DNA of 64,000 nt from Geodermatophilus sp. DSM 45219 (GCF_900104025.1 NZ_FNIQ01000002.1:1-64000); one strand, 5' to 3'. Shown: positions 7,267-62,790, counted from the first letter of the stretch. The notes: generated from the sequence alone by a model not told the origin. A program made the numbers and translations.

Positions 7267-8301
7267 GTGACAGAGGTCAGTCCTGCCGTGTGGGCGCCGA
7301 GCGGAGGCCGGCACGTGCTGCTCGCCGTCCACACCGGCCGCCAGGACATCGTCGAGCTCGCCCGCAGCTCCGCCGCCCGGCTGGCCAAGGGCGGCATCAC
7401 CGTGCGGCTGCTCGAGGACGAGGCCGTCGCGCTCGGCATCGAGGGCGCGCAGGTCGTGGCCGCCGACGCCGAGGCCGCCCGCGGCGCGGAGATCGTCATG
7501 GTCTTCGGCGGCGACGGCACCTTCCTGCGCGCCGCCGAGCTGGCGCGGTACAGCAACGCCGCGCTCATGGGCGTGAACCTGGGCCGGGTCGGCTTCCTCG
7601 CCGAGACCGAGCCCGAGGCGGTCGAGGAGACCCTCACCGCGATCGAGCGGTGCGAGTACTCGGTGGAGAAGCGGCTGGCGATCGAGGTGGACGTCCTCGA
7701 CGCGAGCGGAGCCGTCGTCGGCGGCACCTGGGCGATGAACGAGGCGTCGGTGGAGAAGTCCGAGCGCTCCCGGGTGCTCGACGTCGTCGTGGCCATCGAC
7801 GGCCGCCCGCTGACCAGCTTCGGCTGCGACGGGGTGCTGTTCGCCACCCCCACCGGGTCCACCGCCTACGCCTTCTCCGCCGGCGGACCGGTCGTGTGGC
7901 CCGACGTCGAGGCGATGCTCGTCGTCCCCTCCAACGCCCACGCCCTGTTCTCCCGCCCGCTGGTGACCTCGCCGGACTCGGTGCTCACCGTCGCCATCCC
8001 GGCCGACGGCAACCGGGCCCGCGTCTCCGCCGACGGCCGGCGCGCGCTGGAGGTGCCCGAGGGCGGGCGGGTCGACGTCCGCCGGGCCGCCCGGCCGGTG
8101 CGCATCGCCCGGGTGCACAAGGCGACCTTCGGCGACCGGCTGGTGGCCAAGTTCGGGCTGCCGGTGCGCGGCTTCCGGGACGCCCGCCGGCACGACCCGG
8201 GCCGGGAGATCGGCGCCGACCGCAACGTGCTCACCCGCGGCTACGTCGGCGGGTACCCGGGGGAGGAGGGCCGCGGTGCCGGCACGGACGACGACGCGTG
8301 A
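7267..8301 (+). CDS. nadK: NAD kinase
   Basis: A 344-residue ATP-NAD kinase that makes NADP. Visible motifs are F-G-G-D-G-T-F-L-R-A (the GGDG active site), N-L-G-R-V-G-F-L-A-E, the N-E-A-S-V-E-K substrate loop, and G-C-D-G-V-L-F-A-T-P-T-G-S-T-A-Y. The C-terminal 35 residues beyond the kinase fold are variable. GTG at 7267 follows GAGGAGGAAGC. The end overlaps recN by 26 bases. Confidence 0.95.
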   Translation: MTEVSPAVWAPSGGRHVLLAVHTGRQDIVELARSSAARLAKGGITVRLLEDEAVALGIEGAQVVAADAEAARGAEIVMVFGGDGTFLRAAELARYSNAALMGVNLGRVGFLAETEPEAVEETLTAIERCEYSVEKRLAIEVDVLDASGAVVGGTWAMNEASVEKSERSRVLDVVVAIDGRPLTSFGCDGVLFATPTGSTAYAFSAGGPVVWPDVEAMLVVPSNAHALFSRPLVTSPDSVLTVAIPADGNRARVSADGRRALEVPEGGRVDVRRAARPVRIARVHKATFGDRLVAKFGLPVRGFRDARRHDPGREIGADRNVLTRGYVGGYPGEEGRGAGTDDDA

Positions 8302-58365: not shown

Positions 58366-58509
58366 TCAGTCCTCCAGCACGGCGCCGGCCGCCCGCCACG
58401 GGCGCTCGGCGACCTCCTCGACGGCTTCGTGCGCCTCGTCGCTGGCGTGGTCCAGCGGCTTCGCCCACGGGGACCGCGTGGCCGGCACCGCCAGTTCGGC
58501 GGTCCTCAC
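58366..58509 (-). CDS. small hypothetical protein downstream of the Asp23 fusion
   Basis: A 47-residue frame from GTG at 58509 (GTG at 58575 would give 69 residues and overlap the preceding gene). The product has a protein-like composition: S-P-W-A-K-P-L-D-H-A-S-D-E-A-H-E-A-V-E-E-V-A-E-R-P-W. It forms one acidic amphipathic helix flanked by Trp-Pro motifs. Same strand as the sigma and zinc-finger/Asp23 genes. No family known to me. Confidence 0.45.
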   Translation of the reverse strand: MRTAELAVPATRSPWAKPLDHASDEAHEAVEEVAERPWRAAGAVLED

Positions 58510-58567
58510 CGTCGGGTGGTGCCCGCCACGTCCCGTCCAGCCCCGGCCTCGTCGCCGCGTTCCGGTC

Positions 58568-59200
58568 TCATCCACCCCCGTGGGGCGTCCGGACGTCGAC
58601 GACGGCGACGTTGACCTCGGTGGTGACCAGCCCGGTCTGCTGCGCGATGTGCGCGGCGATGCGCTCGCGCACCACCGCCGCGACGGCGTGGATCGGGACG
58701 CCGTGGTCGACGGCGATCTGGACGTCGACCACCACGCGGGAACCGGCCGTGCCCACCGCGGTGGCCGCCTCTCCGTCCGGCCCGGCGACTCGTGCGGGGT
58801 CGGCCGCGGTGTCCGGCGGGGTGGCCACCCGGCCCCCGCCGAGGGCGAGGGACACGTGCGGTACCGACTCGGCGGCCAGGCGGGCGACGGCTCCGACGAC
58901 GCGCGCGGCGATGCGGGTCTGGCCGGCGGGGTCGTGGAGCACGGCGGACCAGTTGGCGCGGGACAGTTCGCGGACCTGCGCCATCACCGACTGGAGCAGG
59001 TCGGCCGGGGCGCGGACCCGCTCTGCTGCCAGCTCGCGGACGGGGGTCCAGAGCTCCTCGAACTCGGCCAGCGCCGCGCGGCAGTGGGGGCAGCTCCGCT
59101 GGTGGGCCGGGTCGCGCGGCGCGGTGCCCTCGGTGACCTGGGTGAGCAGGTCGGCCGGGACGGCGCCGCAGGGCAGGCGGTCGGCGGGCACGGCGGTCAC
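58568..59200 (-). CDS. zinc-finger (anti-sigma-like) and Asp23 domain fusion protein
   Basis: A 210-residue protein. Residues 25-45 carry H-Q-R-S-C-P-H-C, the H-x3-C-x2-C motif of zinc-binding anti-sigma factors. Residues 50-95 are helical (E-E-L-W-T-P-V-R-E-L-A-A-E-R-V-R-A-P), also as in anti-sigma domains. Residues 95-205 are Asp23/Gls24-like, ending V-V-V-D-V-Q-I-A-V-D-H-G-V-P-I and T-E-V-N-V-A-V-V-D-V. GTG at 59200 overlaps the stop of the sigma gene, with GGAG 5 bases before it. It probably controls the co-encoded sigma factor. Confidence 0.82.
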   Translation of the reverse strand: MTAVPADRLPCGAVPADLLTQVTEGTAPRDPAHQRSCPHCRAALAEFEELWTPVRELAAERVRAPADLLQSVMAQVRELSRANWSAVLHDPAGQTRIAARVVGAVARLAAESVPHVSLALGGGRVATPPDTAADPARVAGPDGEAATAVGTAGSRVVVDVQIAVDHGVPIHAVAAVVRERIAAHIAQQTGLVTTEVNVAVVDVRTPHGGG

Positions 59201-59772
59201 CTCCACTCCTGCAGGACGTCGGCCAGTGCCCGCCGGGCGCGGTGGGCCCGGACCTTCGCGGCGCTCTCGCTGATCCCCAGGATGCGCCCGGTCTCGGCGT
59301 GTGTGTACCCACCGAACGTGGTGAGCACGAGCGGCGCCCGCTGGTCGAGGGGAAGCGCCCGCAGGGCGTGCCGGACGGCCTCGCGGCGGTGCGCGGCGAC
59401 GGCGAGCGTCTCCGCAGCCGGCGTGCGGGGCATGTCTGCTGCCGTGTCGTCCTCCGGGAGGGGGCCGACGGGGCGGCGGGCGCGGTGGGCGTTGTGGCAG
59501 CGGTTGATCAGGATCCGGGTCGCCCAGGTGGAGAACCCGGCCTCGCCGCGGAAACCCGGCAGGTGGCGCCACGCCTGGATCAGGGTCTCCTGGAGGACGT
59601 CGCGGGCGTCGTCGCGATCGCCGGTCATGCGCAGGGCGACCGCGTACAGGCGGTCCTGGTGGCTGCGGACGAGAGCGGCGAACGCCTGCTCGTCACCTGC
59701 CCGGGCCAGGTCGACCCAGCGGGCCTCCAGCGGATCGGCCGGCCTGTCCGCGTCGACGGTCGACCCGCTCAC
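59197..59772 (-). CDS. ECF-type RNA polymerase sigma factor
   Basis: A 191-residue sigma-70 family factor. Region 2 is A-F-A-A-L-V-R-S-H-Q-D-R-L-Y-A-V-A-L-R-M, D-A-R-D-V-L-Q-E-T-L-I-Q-A-W and F-S-T-W-A-T-R-I-L-I-N-R. Region 4 is L-P-L-D-Q-R-A-P-L-V-L, A-E-T-G-R-I-L-G-I-S-E-S-A-A-K-V-R-A-H-R-A-R. It is translationally coupled to the zinc-finger/Asp23 gene and divergent from the main Asp23 operon, which it may activate. Confidence 0.92.
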   Translation of the reverse strand: MSGSTVDADRPADPLEARWVDLARAGDEQAFAALVRSHQDRLYAVALRMTGDRDDARDVLQETLIQAWRHLPGFRGEAGFSTWATRILINRCHNAHRARRPVGPLPEDDTAADMPRTPAAETLAVAAHRREAVRHALRALPLDQRAPLVLTTFGGYTHAETGRILGISESAAKVRAHRARRALADVLQEWR

Positions 59773-59933
59773 CGCGGTGTTGTGCCGCGCACTACGAGAT
59801 CTTTCCCCATCTGCTGTAACCCTTCCCGTCCCTGTGTGTCCAAGGAGGTGTGGCCCGTGAGGCGGACGAGCAACGGCCGCTCGCCTCGGAGCCACGGACG
59901 AGACTGCCCCTACCCACCGGAAGAGGTCCAACC

Positions 59934-60395
59934 ATGACCCAGTCCACCAGCAGCAGCACCTCCACCTCGTCGAGCGCGATCGCGCAGGCGACCCCGTCGG
60001 CCCTGCAGAGCACGCAGGGGACGACGACCATCGCCAACGACGTCGTCCAGAAGATCGCCGGCCTGGCCGCGCGCGAGGTCGCCGGCGTCTACTCCCTCGG
60101 CGGCGGCGCGGCCCGCGCGCTCGGTGCACTGCGCGAGCGCATCCCCGGCGCCTCCCAGGCGGTCGGCCAGGGCGTGACGGTCGAGGTGGGCGAGCGGCAG
60201 GCCGCGGTGGACCTGGACCTGGTCACCGAGTACGGCGTCCCGATCGCCGACCTGTCGCGGTCGGTGCGGCGCAACGTCATCGCCTCGGTCGAGGGGATGA
60301 CCGGCCTGCAGGTCACCGAGGTGAACATCTCGGTCAACGACATCCACCTGCCCACCGACGACGAGGGTCCGCAGGAGCCTGCGCGCGTCCGGTGA
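59934..60395 (+). CDS. Asp23/Gls24 family envelope stress protein
   Basis: A 153-residue Asp23 protein. A Ser/Thr-rich head (1-30) precedes the domain: T-T-I-A-N-D-V-V-Q-K-I-A-G-L-A-A-R-E-V-A-G-V-Y, G-V-T-V-E-V-G-E-R-Q-A-A-V-D-L-D-L-V-T-E-Y-G, and L-Q-V-T-E-V-N-I-S-V-N-D-I-H-L. Family members coat the membrane through AmaP, present at 62218. ATG at 59934 has AAGAGG 8 bases upstream. It is the first gene of the plus-strand operon. Confidence 0.92.
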   Translation: MTQSTSSSTSTSSSAIAQATPSALQSTQGTTTIANDVVQKIAGLAAREVAGVYSLGGGAARALGALRERIPGASQAVGQGVTVEVGERQAAVDLDLVTEYGVPIADLSRSVRRNVIASVEGMTGLQVTEVNISVNDIHLPTDDEGPQEPARVR

Positions 60396-60730
60396 GCACT
60401 CCGCAGAGCGTCGCGGGAGCCGAGGTGCTCGTCGAGGCCGGGACGGCGGACGCGATCGTCGCGGCCGTCACGGCCTGCCCGGCCGTGGCGTCCCTGCACG
60501 GCGGCGGTCTGCGCCGCACCGCGACCTACCTCCCGGGCCGCCTGGTCGAGGGTGTGCACGTCGACGACGACCGGGTCCGGGTCTCCGTCGTCGCCGTGCA
60601 GGGGGTACCCGTGGCGCAGGTGGCGGAGCAGGTCCGCGCCGCCGTCGCGCCCCTCGTCCCCGGCCGGGCGGTCGACGTCCACGTGGCCGACGTGCAGGTG
60701 ACCCACCCGCCGGCTCCGCCGCCGGCCTGA
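60392..60730 (+). CDS. short Asp23-like protein
   Basis: A 112-residue protein, a reduced Asp23-like domain. The alternating strands are L-V-E-G-V-H-V-D-D-D-R-V-R-V-S-V-V-A-V-Q-G-V-P and A-V-D-V-H-V-A-D-V-Q-V-T. It overlaps the preceding Asp23 gene by 4 bases, so both are probably made together and may associate. Confidence 0.75.
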   Translation: MSTPQSVAGAEVLVEAGTADAIVAAVTACPAVASLHGGGLRRTATYLPGRLVEGVHVDDDRVRVSVVAVQGVPVAQVAEQVRAAVAPLVPGRAVDVHVADVQVTHPPAPPPA

Positions 60731-60749
60731 CCGCTCCTCGGAGCCCGAG

Positions 60750-60986
60750 ATGCCGTCGTCCCCCGATCCCGCCGAGCGCCGCCGGCGGCGTGCGCTCCTG
60801 CGGGCCACCCATCCCGACCTCGGTGGGGACCCCGAGGAGTTCATCCGCGTCCTCGCCGCGCTCGAGGCCGGGGGGACGGCGGCACCCGGTCCCGGACCCG
60901 AGGTGCGATTCGTGCGCCGGCCCCGGGGAGTCGCCCGGGTCACCGCGTGGTGGCGGCGCCGACGGCGCCCCCCGCGCGTCGTCTGA
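60750..60986 (+). CDS. tiny protein with HPD-containing J-like motif
   Basis: A 78-residue basic protein. Residues 15-42 read L-L-R-A-T-H-P-D-L-G-G-D-P-E-E-F-I-R-V-L, matching the H-P-D-x-G-G-D loop and start of helix III of J-domains. The preceding helix is short and Arg-rich, and the C-terminus is a tryptophan/arginine-rich tail that could bind membrane or nucleic acid. Whether it stimulates an Hsp70 is unknown. It sits inside the Asp23 operon. Confidence 0.68.
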   Translation: MPSSPDPAERRRRRALLRATHPDLGGDPEEFIRVLAALEAGGTAAPGPGPEVRFVRRPRGVARVTAWWRRRRRPPRVV

Positions 60987-61030
60987 GGTCCGTCCCGCTC
61001 CCGCCCGTCCCATCCGTACGGAGGAACTCC

Positions 61031-61216
61031 ATGCCCCCCACCGTCGTCGGTCTCTTCACCGGCCTCCTGCTCGGCCTGGCCTGGGTGATCGGCGGTCTCG
61101 ACGCCTTCGTCGGCACCGCCGTGCTCGGTGTCATCGGCTTCGTCATCGGCAAGGTCGTCGCCGGCCAGCTCGACCTCACCCCGTACCTGGGCGGCGGCGG
61201 CCGCGGCTCCCGGTGA
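61031..61216 (+). CDS. small two-pass membrane protein, DUF2273-like
   Basis: A 61-residue protein with two membrane helices (G-L-F-T-G-L-L-L-G-L-A-W-V-I-G and A-V-L-G-V-I-G-F-V-I-G-K-V-V-A-G) and a Gly-rich end. Small DUF2273-type proteins accompany Asp23 genes in Gram-positive bacteria and probably help anchor the Asp23 layer. GAGG lies 8 bases before the ATG. Confidence 0.8.
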   Translation: MPPTVVGLFTGLLLGLAWVIGGLDAFVGTAVLGVIGFVIGKVVAGQLDLTPYLGGGGRGSR

Positions 61217-61665
61217 GCACCGTCGCCTCCGCGGTCGTCCCCGACGACGCGCCGGTCGGCACCCCGCTCGCCGCCGAGACCGGCAGCGCCCACCCCGAGC
61301 TGGGTGACCCGGCCGAGCGGGGCAGCCTCACCGTCGCCGACCGGGTCGTCGAACGCGTCGCCGGCCACGCCGTGACCCGGGTCGAGGGCGCCAGCGCCGC
61401 CCCGCGCCGCGTGCTGGGAGTCAGCGTCGGCGGCAGCCGGCCCGACCGTGAGGCTTCCGTCGACGCCCGCGTCGACGGCTCGACCGCCACCGTCGAGGCC
61501 ACCGTGGCCGTCGCGTGGCCTGCATCGGTCCGCGAGGTGACGGCACGGCTGCGGGAGCAGGTGCGCGACGACGTCGGCCGCATCACCGGCGTGCGCGTGG
61601 CCCACGTCGACGTCGACGTCGTCAGCCTGACGGCGCCGGCGGCCCGTCCGCGCCGGGTCCAGTGA
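61213..61665 (+). CDS. Asp23/Gls24 family protein
   Basis: A 150-residue Asp23-type protein with an acidic Ala/Pro-rich head, then L-T-V-A-D-R-V-V-E-R-V-A-G-H-A-V-T-R-V-E-G, A-S-V-D-A-R-V-D-G-S-T-A-T-V-E-A-T-V-A-V and V-R-V-A-H-V-D-V-D-V-V-S-L. It is the third plus-strand Asp23-type gene here and overlaps the DUF2273-like gene by 4 bases. Confidence 0.87.
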   Translation: MSTVASAVVPDDAPVGTPLAAETGSAHPELGDPAERGSLTVADRVVERVAGHAVTRVEGASAAPRRVLGVSVGGSRPDREASVDARVDGSTATVEATVAVAWPASVREVTARLREQVRDDVGRITGVRVAHVDVDVVSLTAPAARPRRVQ

Positions 61666-61690
61666 CCGCATCCACGAGGAAGGAGCAGAC

Positions 61691-62221
61691 GTGCACGTGG
61701 TGAACCGGGTCCTCGCGACCCTGCTGGCGCTCGCGCTGCTGCTCGGCGGGCTGCTGGCCGTCGTCGAGATCGTCCTGGCCCAGCTGGGCCGCCCGTCCTG
61801 GCTCGCGCCCCACGAGCGGTGGAGCAGCTGGCTGGCGGGCCAGACCTTCCTCAGCGGGGTGGTCCGCGCCGTCCTGATCGGCCTGGCGGTCCTCGGGCTC
61901 GTGCTGCTCGTGCTCGCGCTCCGGCGTGGGAGGCCCGGATCGGTGCAGCTGCCGTCCCGGACCGAGGGCGTCCGCGTGAGCGCTTCCCGCCGCGGCATCG
62001 AGCGCTCGCTGTCGACGGCCGCACGGCGGGCCGACGGCGTCCGGTCGGCCCGCGCCAGGGCCGGACGGCGTGCCGTGCGGGTGAAGGCCGTGTCGGCCCT
62101 GCGCTCGACCGGTGACCTGCAGCAGCCGGTCACGGCGGCCGTCACCGCCCGACTCGAGCAGCTCGGCCTCGGCGGGGTCCTGCGGCCCCGCGTCACCGTC
62201 ACGAAGGAGTCCTCCCGGTGA
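61691..62221 (+). CDS. DUF6286-type membrane protein
   Basis: A 176-residue protein with two membrane segments (about 6-28 and 55-78) followed by a basic cytoplasmic domain (V-R-V-S-A-S-R-R-G-I-E-R-S-L and R-A-V-R-V-K-A-V-S-A-L). Proteins of this outline are annotated DUF6286 in actinobacterial Asp23 clusters. Start GTG at 61691 with GAGGAAGGAG upstream. It overlaps amaP. Confidence 0.78.
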   Translation: MHVVNRVLATLLALALLLGGLLAVVEIVLAQLGRPSWLAPHERWSSWLAGQTFLSGVVRAVLIGLAVLGLVLLVLALRRGRPGSVQLPSRTEGVRVSASRRGIERSLSTAARRADGVRSARARAGRRAVRVKAVSALRSTGDLQQPVTAAVTARLEQLGLGGVLRPRVTVTKESSR

Positions 62222-62790
62222 GCGCACGCGTGAACGGCGTCAACCGCACGGTCCTGGCGCTCCTCGGCCTGGTGCTGCTCGCGGCCGGAGGGCTGGGCCT
62301 GGCGTACTCCTTCGGCGCCTTCGGTACCGGGCAGCGCCCGGTCCTGCCCCAGCCGGTGCGCGACTACGCCCGCGAGCAGGGCTGGTTCTGGTGGGCGGTG
62401 GCCGGCGTGTGCCTCCTGCTGGCGCTGGTGGGTCTGTGGTGGCTGCTGGCCCAGCTGCGGACCGACCGCGTCAGCCGCCTCGACCTCACCACCGACGACC
62501 GGGACGGCCTGACCACCGTGCACGCCGGGGCCGTGACCGACGCGGTCGAGACCGAGGTCGAGGGACTCCGCGGCGTGGCCGGCGCGTCGGCGTCCCTGAT
62601 CGAGCGACGCGGGCGGCGCCTGACCCTGTCCGTCGACCTGGCGGAGTACGCCGACATCGCCGAGGTCCGGCAGGCCATCGAGGACCGCGTCGTCGCCCAC
62701 GCGCGGCAGGCCCTCGACGACCCGGACCTGCTGGTGGACGTCGAGCTGCGCCCCGGACGCACCCGGTCGGCCGGGCACGGCGTGCGCTGA
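62218..62790 (+). CDS. amaP: alkaline shock response membrane anchor protein AmaP
   Basis: A 190-residue protein with two N-terminal membrane helices (about 11-31, T-V-L-A-L-L-G-L-V-L-L-A-A-G-G, and 57-78, W-W-A-V-A-G-V-C-L-L-L-A-L-V-G). The cytoplasmic Asp23-binding domain includes L-I-E-R-R-G-R-R-L-T-L-S-V-D-L-A. In Staphylococcus AmaP tethers Asp23 to the membrane. It is the last gene of the operon. Confidence 0.87.
   Translation: MSARVNGVNRTVLALLGLVLLAAGGLGLAYSFGAFGTGQRPVLPQPVRDYAREQGWFWWAVAGVCLLLALVGLWWLLAQLRTDRVSRLDLTTDDRDGLTTVHAGAVTDAVETEVEGLRGVAGASASLIERRGRRLTLSVDLAEYADIAEVRQAIEDRVVAHARQALDDPDLLVDVELRPGRTRSAGHGVR

Follow-up and report, generated by a model that had tools for sequence, protein, structure and literature searches.

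A predicted ECF sigma factor circuit with a zinc-head/Asp23 anti-sigma protein at an Asp23/AmaP operon of Geodermatophilus

The Asp23/AmaP operon on contig C11 of a 4.97-Mb Geodermatophilus genome lies divergent from a gene pair with which it probably forms a local envelope-stress circuit. The pair encodes an extracytoplasmic function (ECF) sigma factor and a protein that joins a zinc-associated anti-sigma (ZAS) head to an Asp23 domain. On balance, it is probable that the ZAS-Asp23 protein holds the ECF sigma factor and that the released sigma factor drives the Asp23/AmaP operon, and the Asp23 half may sense the state of the layer. The case is read from sequence: the gene pair and its conservation, the zinc motif, the likeness to known anti-sigma factors, and a promoter footprint with natural controls. 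Positions are counted along the window, which is the whole 64,000-nt stretch of DNA analysed. The three central elements of the circuit are as follows.

59197..59772, minus strand: ECF sigma factor gene, about 191 aa, GTG start; Pfam Sigma70_r2 68.5 bits, r4_2 54.2 bits.
58568..59206, minus strand: ZAS-Asp23 fusion, putative cytosolic anti-sigma factor, 212 aa, GTG start; PF03780 42.1 bits.
59816..59840, plus strand: predicted ECF-type promoter facing the Asp23 operon, GTAACCCTTCCCGTCCCTGTGTGTC; -35 GTAACCC, -10 GTGTC; recognised by phylogenetic footprint.

In the proposed mechanism, the co-transcribed ZAS-Asp23 protein would bind the ECF sigma factor in the cytosol and prevent its activity, clamping it with a helical and putatively zinc-binding head as in RslA and RsiW. 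Once freed, the product of 59197-59772 would use the promoter at 59816-59840 (GTAACCC-N13/14-GTGTC) and transcribe the divergent operon. The Asp23 half of the anti-sigma factor would be the sensor, binding free or membrane-assembled Asp23, and the state of the Asp23/AmaP layer would set the amount of free sigma factor. It is very probable that the ZAS-Asp23 partner restrains the ECF sigma factor, and also very probable that this sigma factor turns on the neighbouring operon.

A preliminary description of this DNA had reported an ECF sigma gene coupled to a fusion of an H-x3-C-x2-C head with an Asp23 domain, divergent from an Asp23/AmaP operon. Pfam, NCBIfam and the sequence confirm this arrangement. 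The sigma factor has regions 2 and 4 only, both over the Pfam cut-off, in about 190 residues, as is typical of the ECF type. Its start codon, GTGA (TCAC on the plus strand), is kept in most related loci, and the start of the fusion gene overlaps its stop. The fusion also recurs in the survey across actinobacteria that the description had called for. The sample comprises 74 non-redundant sigma/fusion pairs, obtained through family, order, class and phylum searches and a scan of named genomes (Geodermatophilus, Blastococcus, Modestobacter, Actinomycetospora, Pseudonocardia, Streptomyces and one Intrasporangium metagenome-assembled genome). In all 74 loci, the fusion is encoded on the same strand behind an open reading frame (ORF) for an ECF sigma factor. 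The distance from the sigma stop to the head is 6-107 nt in 73 loci and 408 nt in the remaining one, and Asp23-family genes lie divergent from or downstream of the pair in most. Two further loci, L156 and L157, show a sigma gene followed by a fusion-type head; the stretch examined at L156 contains no Asp23 domain after it.

The head of the window's fusion reads C13-x21-H35-x3-C39-x2-C42 and thus combines the H-x3-C-x2-C motif with an upstream metal ligand, the combination that characterises ZAS domains. Loss of the Cys/His motif among homologues would have spoken against an anti-sigma role; the motif is conserved. The four metal ligands (C-H-C-C) are intact in 69 of the 74 fusions, and the invariant head columns in diverse alignments are C13, G14, H35, C39 and C42, with the four ligands invariant in alignments A1-A4. 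The five ligand-deficient fusions are one related group, in which the head sequence is retained and the ligands are gone. No curated Pfam or NCBIfam anti-sigma model scores over its cut-off on the head (RsrA model TIGR03988, 13.2 of 62.5 bits). Such a match is an annotation convenience rather than a structural definition of ZAS, and the head was identified by a family profile.

A head-only profile was compared with 177,635 solved sequences, and its top two matches, at modest E-values, were RslA (3hug_B, E 0.004) and RsiW (5wuq_C, E 0.007, crystallised with SigW). The H-x3-C-x2-C motif is in register between the profile and both matches. Chain 3hug_B, which bears the database label "conserved membrane protein", is RslA. 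With a profile of the whole fusion, RsiW ranks first and RslA third among the solved chains. The relatedness suggested by these modest E-values is backed by the retrieval of RslA-like proteins: in Mycobacterium genomes, the family profile finds 15 RslA-like or similar head-type proteins, all encoded beside an ECF sigma gene, which 14 of them directly follow. Because RslA and RsiW are the best solved matches and the profile retrieves RslA-like anti-sigma factors beside ECF sigma factors, it is very probable that the head is a ZAS domain that binds a sigma factor. The structural model of the fusion contains four head helices (residues 17-26, 33-38, 40-61 and 68-82), with a predicted local distance difference test (pLDDT) score of 86-94 in the first three. 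A membrane segment was not noticed on inspection of the sequence and the model, no predictor having been run.

The promoter at 59816-59840 is newly recognised here and is absent from the preliminary description. All 12 related loci examined that have the sigma/fusion pair share GTAAC[CT]C-N(13-14)-GTGTC as a conserved intergenic block facing the Asp23 operon, in most cases 110-186 nt ahead of the first operon gene. ECF promoters commonly have AAC in the -35 and GTC in the -10 element. The pattern occurs 0-3 times per 5000 shuffles of the intergenic sequence of each of the 12 loci, and it was not found on the reverse strand of these 12 regions. A looser form of the pattern has four matches in the 5-Mb genome, of which only 59816-59840 precedes an Asp23 gene. 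The other three, considered as a regulon, were taken as chance; they lie in the dnaA-dnaN gap, antisense to a probable tsaB-type gene and at a probable molybdenum-cofactor gene, all of these genes being named by eye.

Operons without the pair serve as natural controls. Seven orthologous Geodermatophilaceae operons (L146-L150, L152 and L159) have no such ECF sigma gene and no fusion in the stretches examined, and the GTAACCC/GTGTC motif is absent upstream of all seven. Ahead of the first operon gene, aspA, stands GTTTAC (in one locus GTTTGC) with GAAAC after it and mostly then a run of G; this element may represent either a promoter of the SigB/SigF type or an operator with an inverted repeat. 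Genome G045 combines both situations: its ECF-linked operon, L072, has the motif, and another operon outside any such linkage, L159, lacks it. At locus L153 (around 7300-7700), the start of the sigma gene is joined to the Asp23 end of the fusion by an internal deletion, and the ECF promoter is still there. L153 is a decaying sigma/fusion circuit.

The second half of the fusion belongs to the Asp23 family: PF03780 covers residues 95-206 with 42.1 bits against a cut-off of 28. The modelled domain (residues 98-209, window 58574-58915) resembles the C-terminal domains of cation diffusion facilitator (CDF) metal transporters, with Z 11-12 over 75-79 residues at 1.5-2.2 Å for MamM and MamB. This likeness of the model is read as a shared fold only. 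No solved Asp23-family protein is among the sequence matches to solved chains. The Asp23 domain dominated the structure comparison of the fusion model, which thereby left the head uncovered. An origin of the fusion in which a ZAS domain recently captured AspA, its neighbour, was considered and is disfavoured. In the Asp23 tree, whose support is modest here, the Asp23 domains of the fusions form clades separate from AspA, one clade comprising 112 AspA sequences and a single fusion.

The pairing also exists without zinc. In L142-L145 and L151, the operon has as its divergent neighbour a related ECF sigma gene, and this is followed by a protein that has an Asp23-type domain and no zinc head; the one member tested scores 22.4 bits with PF03780, below the cut-off. 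In Mycobacterium, an ECF sigma gene (150-183 bits to the family profile) likewise runs divergently from the operon and is mostly followed by a similar zinc-less protein. These zinc-less Mycobacterium loci are L167-L171, L175, L176 and L180, and their form may be the ECF292 type discussed below. In the sigma tree, zinc-bearing loci surround the five zinc-less ones of Geodermatophilus (support 0.95-0.96), and the zinc-less Mycobacterium loci lie near the base of the group. From this placement, zinc was lost at least once, and probably on several occasions. At locus L155 (4606-5696), the sigma factor and the Asp23 domain are retained and the head ligands are gone; congeners have the zinc head, and the loss is recent.

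Several results weigh against the proposed circuit or parts of it. A ZAS domain would be expected to bind its sigma factor between regions 2 and 4. In the Modestobacter locus L075, sigma factor and fusion are in frame, and a single-chain read-through of the TGA between them was modelled. The predicted TM-score (pTM) was 0.52, and with both sigma domains aligned the model lies at a root-mean-square deviation of 14-21 Å from solved sigma structures; the placement of the sigma domains matches no solved sigma/anti-sigma arrangement and, at this low pTM, speaks neither for nor against binding. In a mirror-tree comparison, sigma distances correlate with those of the head (r 0.68) and of the Asp23 half (r 0.85; Mantel p 0.001), and in partial correlations the sigma factor follows the Asp23 half (0.69) more closely than the head (0.08), the head being short. 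As evidence of contact, the mirror-tree correlation was dropped because shared descent explains it. The promoter motif faces the sigma gene in 0 of 12 loci, so the pair, as far as this motif tells, is not obviously autoregulated. Furthermore, several lineages in which the sigma factor still adjoins an Asp23 protein have a degenerate zinc head or none. For this reason, the Asp23 half, or the short helix ahead of it, may matter more than zinc.

The last point bears on which part of the fusion is the sensor. The zinc head could itself sense, as in RsrA, ChrR or RslA, with oxidation or zinc loss freeing the sigma factor and the Asp23 half only dimerising the anti-sigma factor or tethering it to the membrane layer. 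The four-ligand site is invariant in most members, and the closest solved relatives of the head include RslA and RsiW, the latter crystallised zinc-bound and oxidised. The resemblance of the Asp23 model to CDF-transporter C-terminal domains, which are generally known to dimerise, would also suit this role. However, a purely zinc-based signal leaves unexplained why several lineages have retained the operon and the sigma/Asp23 pairing after losing the ligands, and a sensing zinc head is regarded as an unlikely explanation. As the zinc site is lost in several lineages with the pairing kept, zinc sensing is not the universal signal, nor is zinc essential to the pairing; the preliminary description, supported in that its anti-sigma-like head resembles solved RslA and RsiW, is to be qualified on this point. 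On the same grounds, a redox switch acting through zinc alone was rated lower as an explanation for the family in general. The Asp23 half would be the simplest sensor because this domain of the inhibitor resembles the operon's own product. That it senses the Asp23/AmaP layer is nonetheless a tentative proposal, with a chance somewhat short of even. About as likely, again somewhat short of even, is that the Asp23 half co-assembles with the layer. A structural layer domain would then have been turned into an anti-sigma sensor, and the state of assembly would directly set transcription. The envelope layer may in this way report on and regulate its own production.

The remaining explanations question the circuit as a whole. 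The fusion might be an extra structural or chaperone part of the Asp23 layer, merely co-transcribed with the sigma factor, and no anti-sigma factor at all. It has the same domain as the structural proteins of the operon, and no contact between sigma factor and fusion could be derived from the single-chain read-through model. A structural role is nevertheless highly improbable in view of the fusion's invariant place behind an ECF sigma gene in 74 loci and of a head that matches RslA and RsiW and whose profile retrieves RslA-like anti-sigma factors. Even less probable is an Asp23 operon driven by another sigma factor, for example of the general-stress SigB/SigF type, with the ECF sigma factor regulating distant genes. 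This idea draws on the GTTTAC-type element upstream of the same operon in relatives without the pair, but loci with the pair did not show that element, and their conserved intergenic block consists of ECF-type -35 and -10 elements. Moreover, the genome's other pattern matches fall either between dnaA and dnaN or at places unlike promoters. The circuit in which the ZAS-Asp23 protein restrains the ECF sigma factor of the Asp23/AmaP operon is the preferred reading.

The divergent operon comprises seven plus-strand genes running away from the sigma/fusion pair:

59934..60395, plus strand: AspA, Asp23-family protein, operon gene 1; PF03780 101.8 bits.
60392..60730, plus strand: AspB, divergent Asp23-like protein; PF03780 18.6 bits, below cut-off; synteny conserved.
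60750..60986, plus strand: 78-aa protein with a J-domain-like HPDxGG motif; kept in about 25 related loci.
61031..61216, plus strand: small membrane protein, DUF2273-like; PF10031 11.5 bits, weak and below cut-off; synteny conserved.
61216..61665, plus strand: AspC, Asp23-family protein; PF03780 48.3 bits.
61691..62221, plus strand: DUF6286 membrane protein, AmaP-like; PF19803 80.3 bits; NF033218 41.6 bits, below cut-off.
62218..62790, plus strand: AmaP-type Asp23 membrane anchor; NF033218 66.2 bits, cut-off 55.

Of the three divergent Asp23-type genes first described, two are clear (AspA and AspC), and the third, AspB, is weak by score and conserved by synteny. Among the anchors, the AmaP-type protein exceeds its cut-off, the DUF6286 protein scores 80.3 bits with PF19803, and the DUF2273 assignment is weak. 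Genome-wide, PF03780 matches are confined to this locus, namely two operon genes and the fusion. A longer homologue of the 60750-60986 ORF, at L046, matches DnaJ with 30.1 bits (cut-off 27.8). Because the HPDxGG motif is kept and this homologue matches DnaJ, the operon may carry a reduced J-domain protein. The left limit of the system, placed at 58366 in the preliminary description, does not hold, as it takes in a 69-aa ORF (58366-58575). This ORF resembles parts of a longer protein of L064 and L014, without its hydrophobic middle, and is probably a remnant of another gene outside the circuit.

Asp23 is abundant and widespread, and a sigma factor with an Asp23-bearing inhibitor and a predicted Asp23-operon target offers a simple reporter of what the Asp23/AmaP layer senses. 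Loci with a zinc head, a degenerate head, no head, or no pair and another promoter form a natural series, and gene swaps within it could test what each part does.

Soluble Asp23-family proteins adjoining the sigma factors of ECF286 and ECF292 have been predicted as anti-sigma factors (2022 review PMC8999054, citing Casas-Pastor et al. 2021). The description of these groups in the review matches the present loci in an actinobacterial ECF sigma factor beside a soluble Asp23-family protein (Streptomyces rimosus, Mycolicibacterium cosmeticum), an arrangement found in the window and in the 74 loci. Where it deals with these groups, the review names the Asp23-family protein alone; the zinc head, the operon promoter and the lineage-wise loss of zinc are added here. 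The preliminary description, which knew of no described case of such a fusion as a sensor, is to be tempered to this extent: because the review already predicts Asp23-family anti-sigma factors beside ECF286 and ECF292, the circuit is a variant of a predicted kind and not a wholly new idea. Literature searches, with the primary ECF classification paper outside their coverage, found no experimental study of an Asp23-type anti-sigma factor. With RsrA, ChrR and the cytosolic heads of RslA and RsiW, the fusion shares the H-x3-C-x2-C motif with its upstream ligand, the short helices and the gene position behind an ECF sigma factor. It differs from soluble ZAS anti-sigma factors and from RslA and RsiW in that a C-terminal Asp23 domain takes the place of a cupin, a membrane segment or nothing. 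The Asp23/AmaP operon of Staphylococcus aureus is under the control of SigB. In that organism, Asp23 and AmaP genes likewise share an operon, AmaP anchors the filament-forming Asp23 as a layer, and loss of either protein induces cell wall stress genes (PMC6954212). Unlike the staphylococcal system, the operon described here has an ECF-type promoter, a dedicated sigma factor and a predicted anti-sigma factor that itself bears an Asp23 domain.

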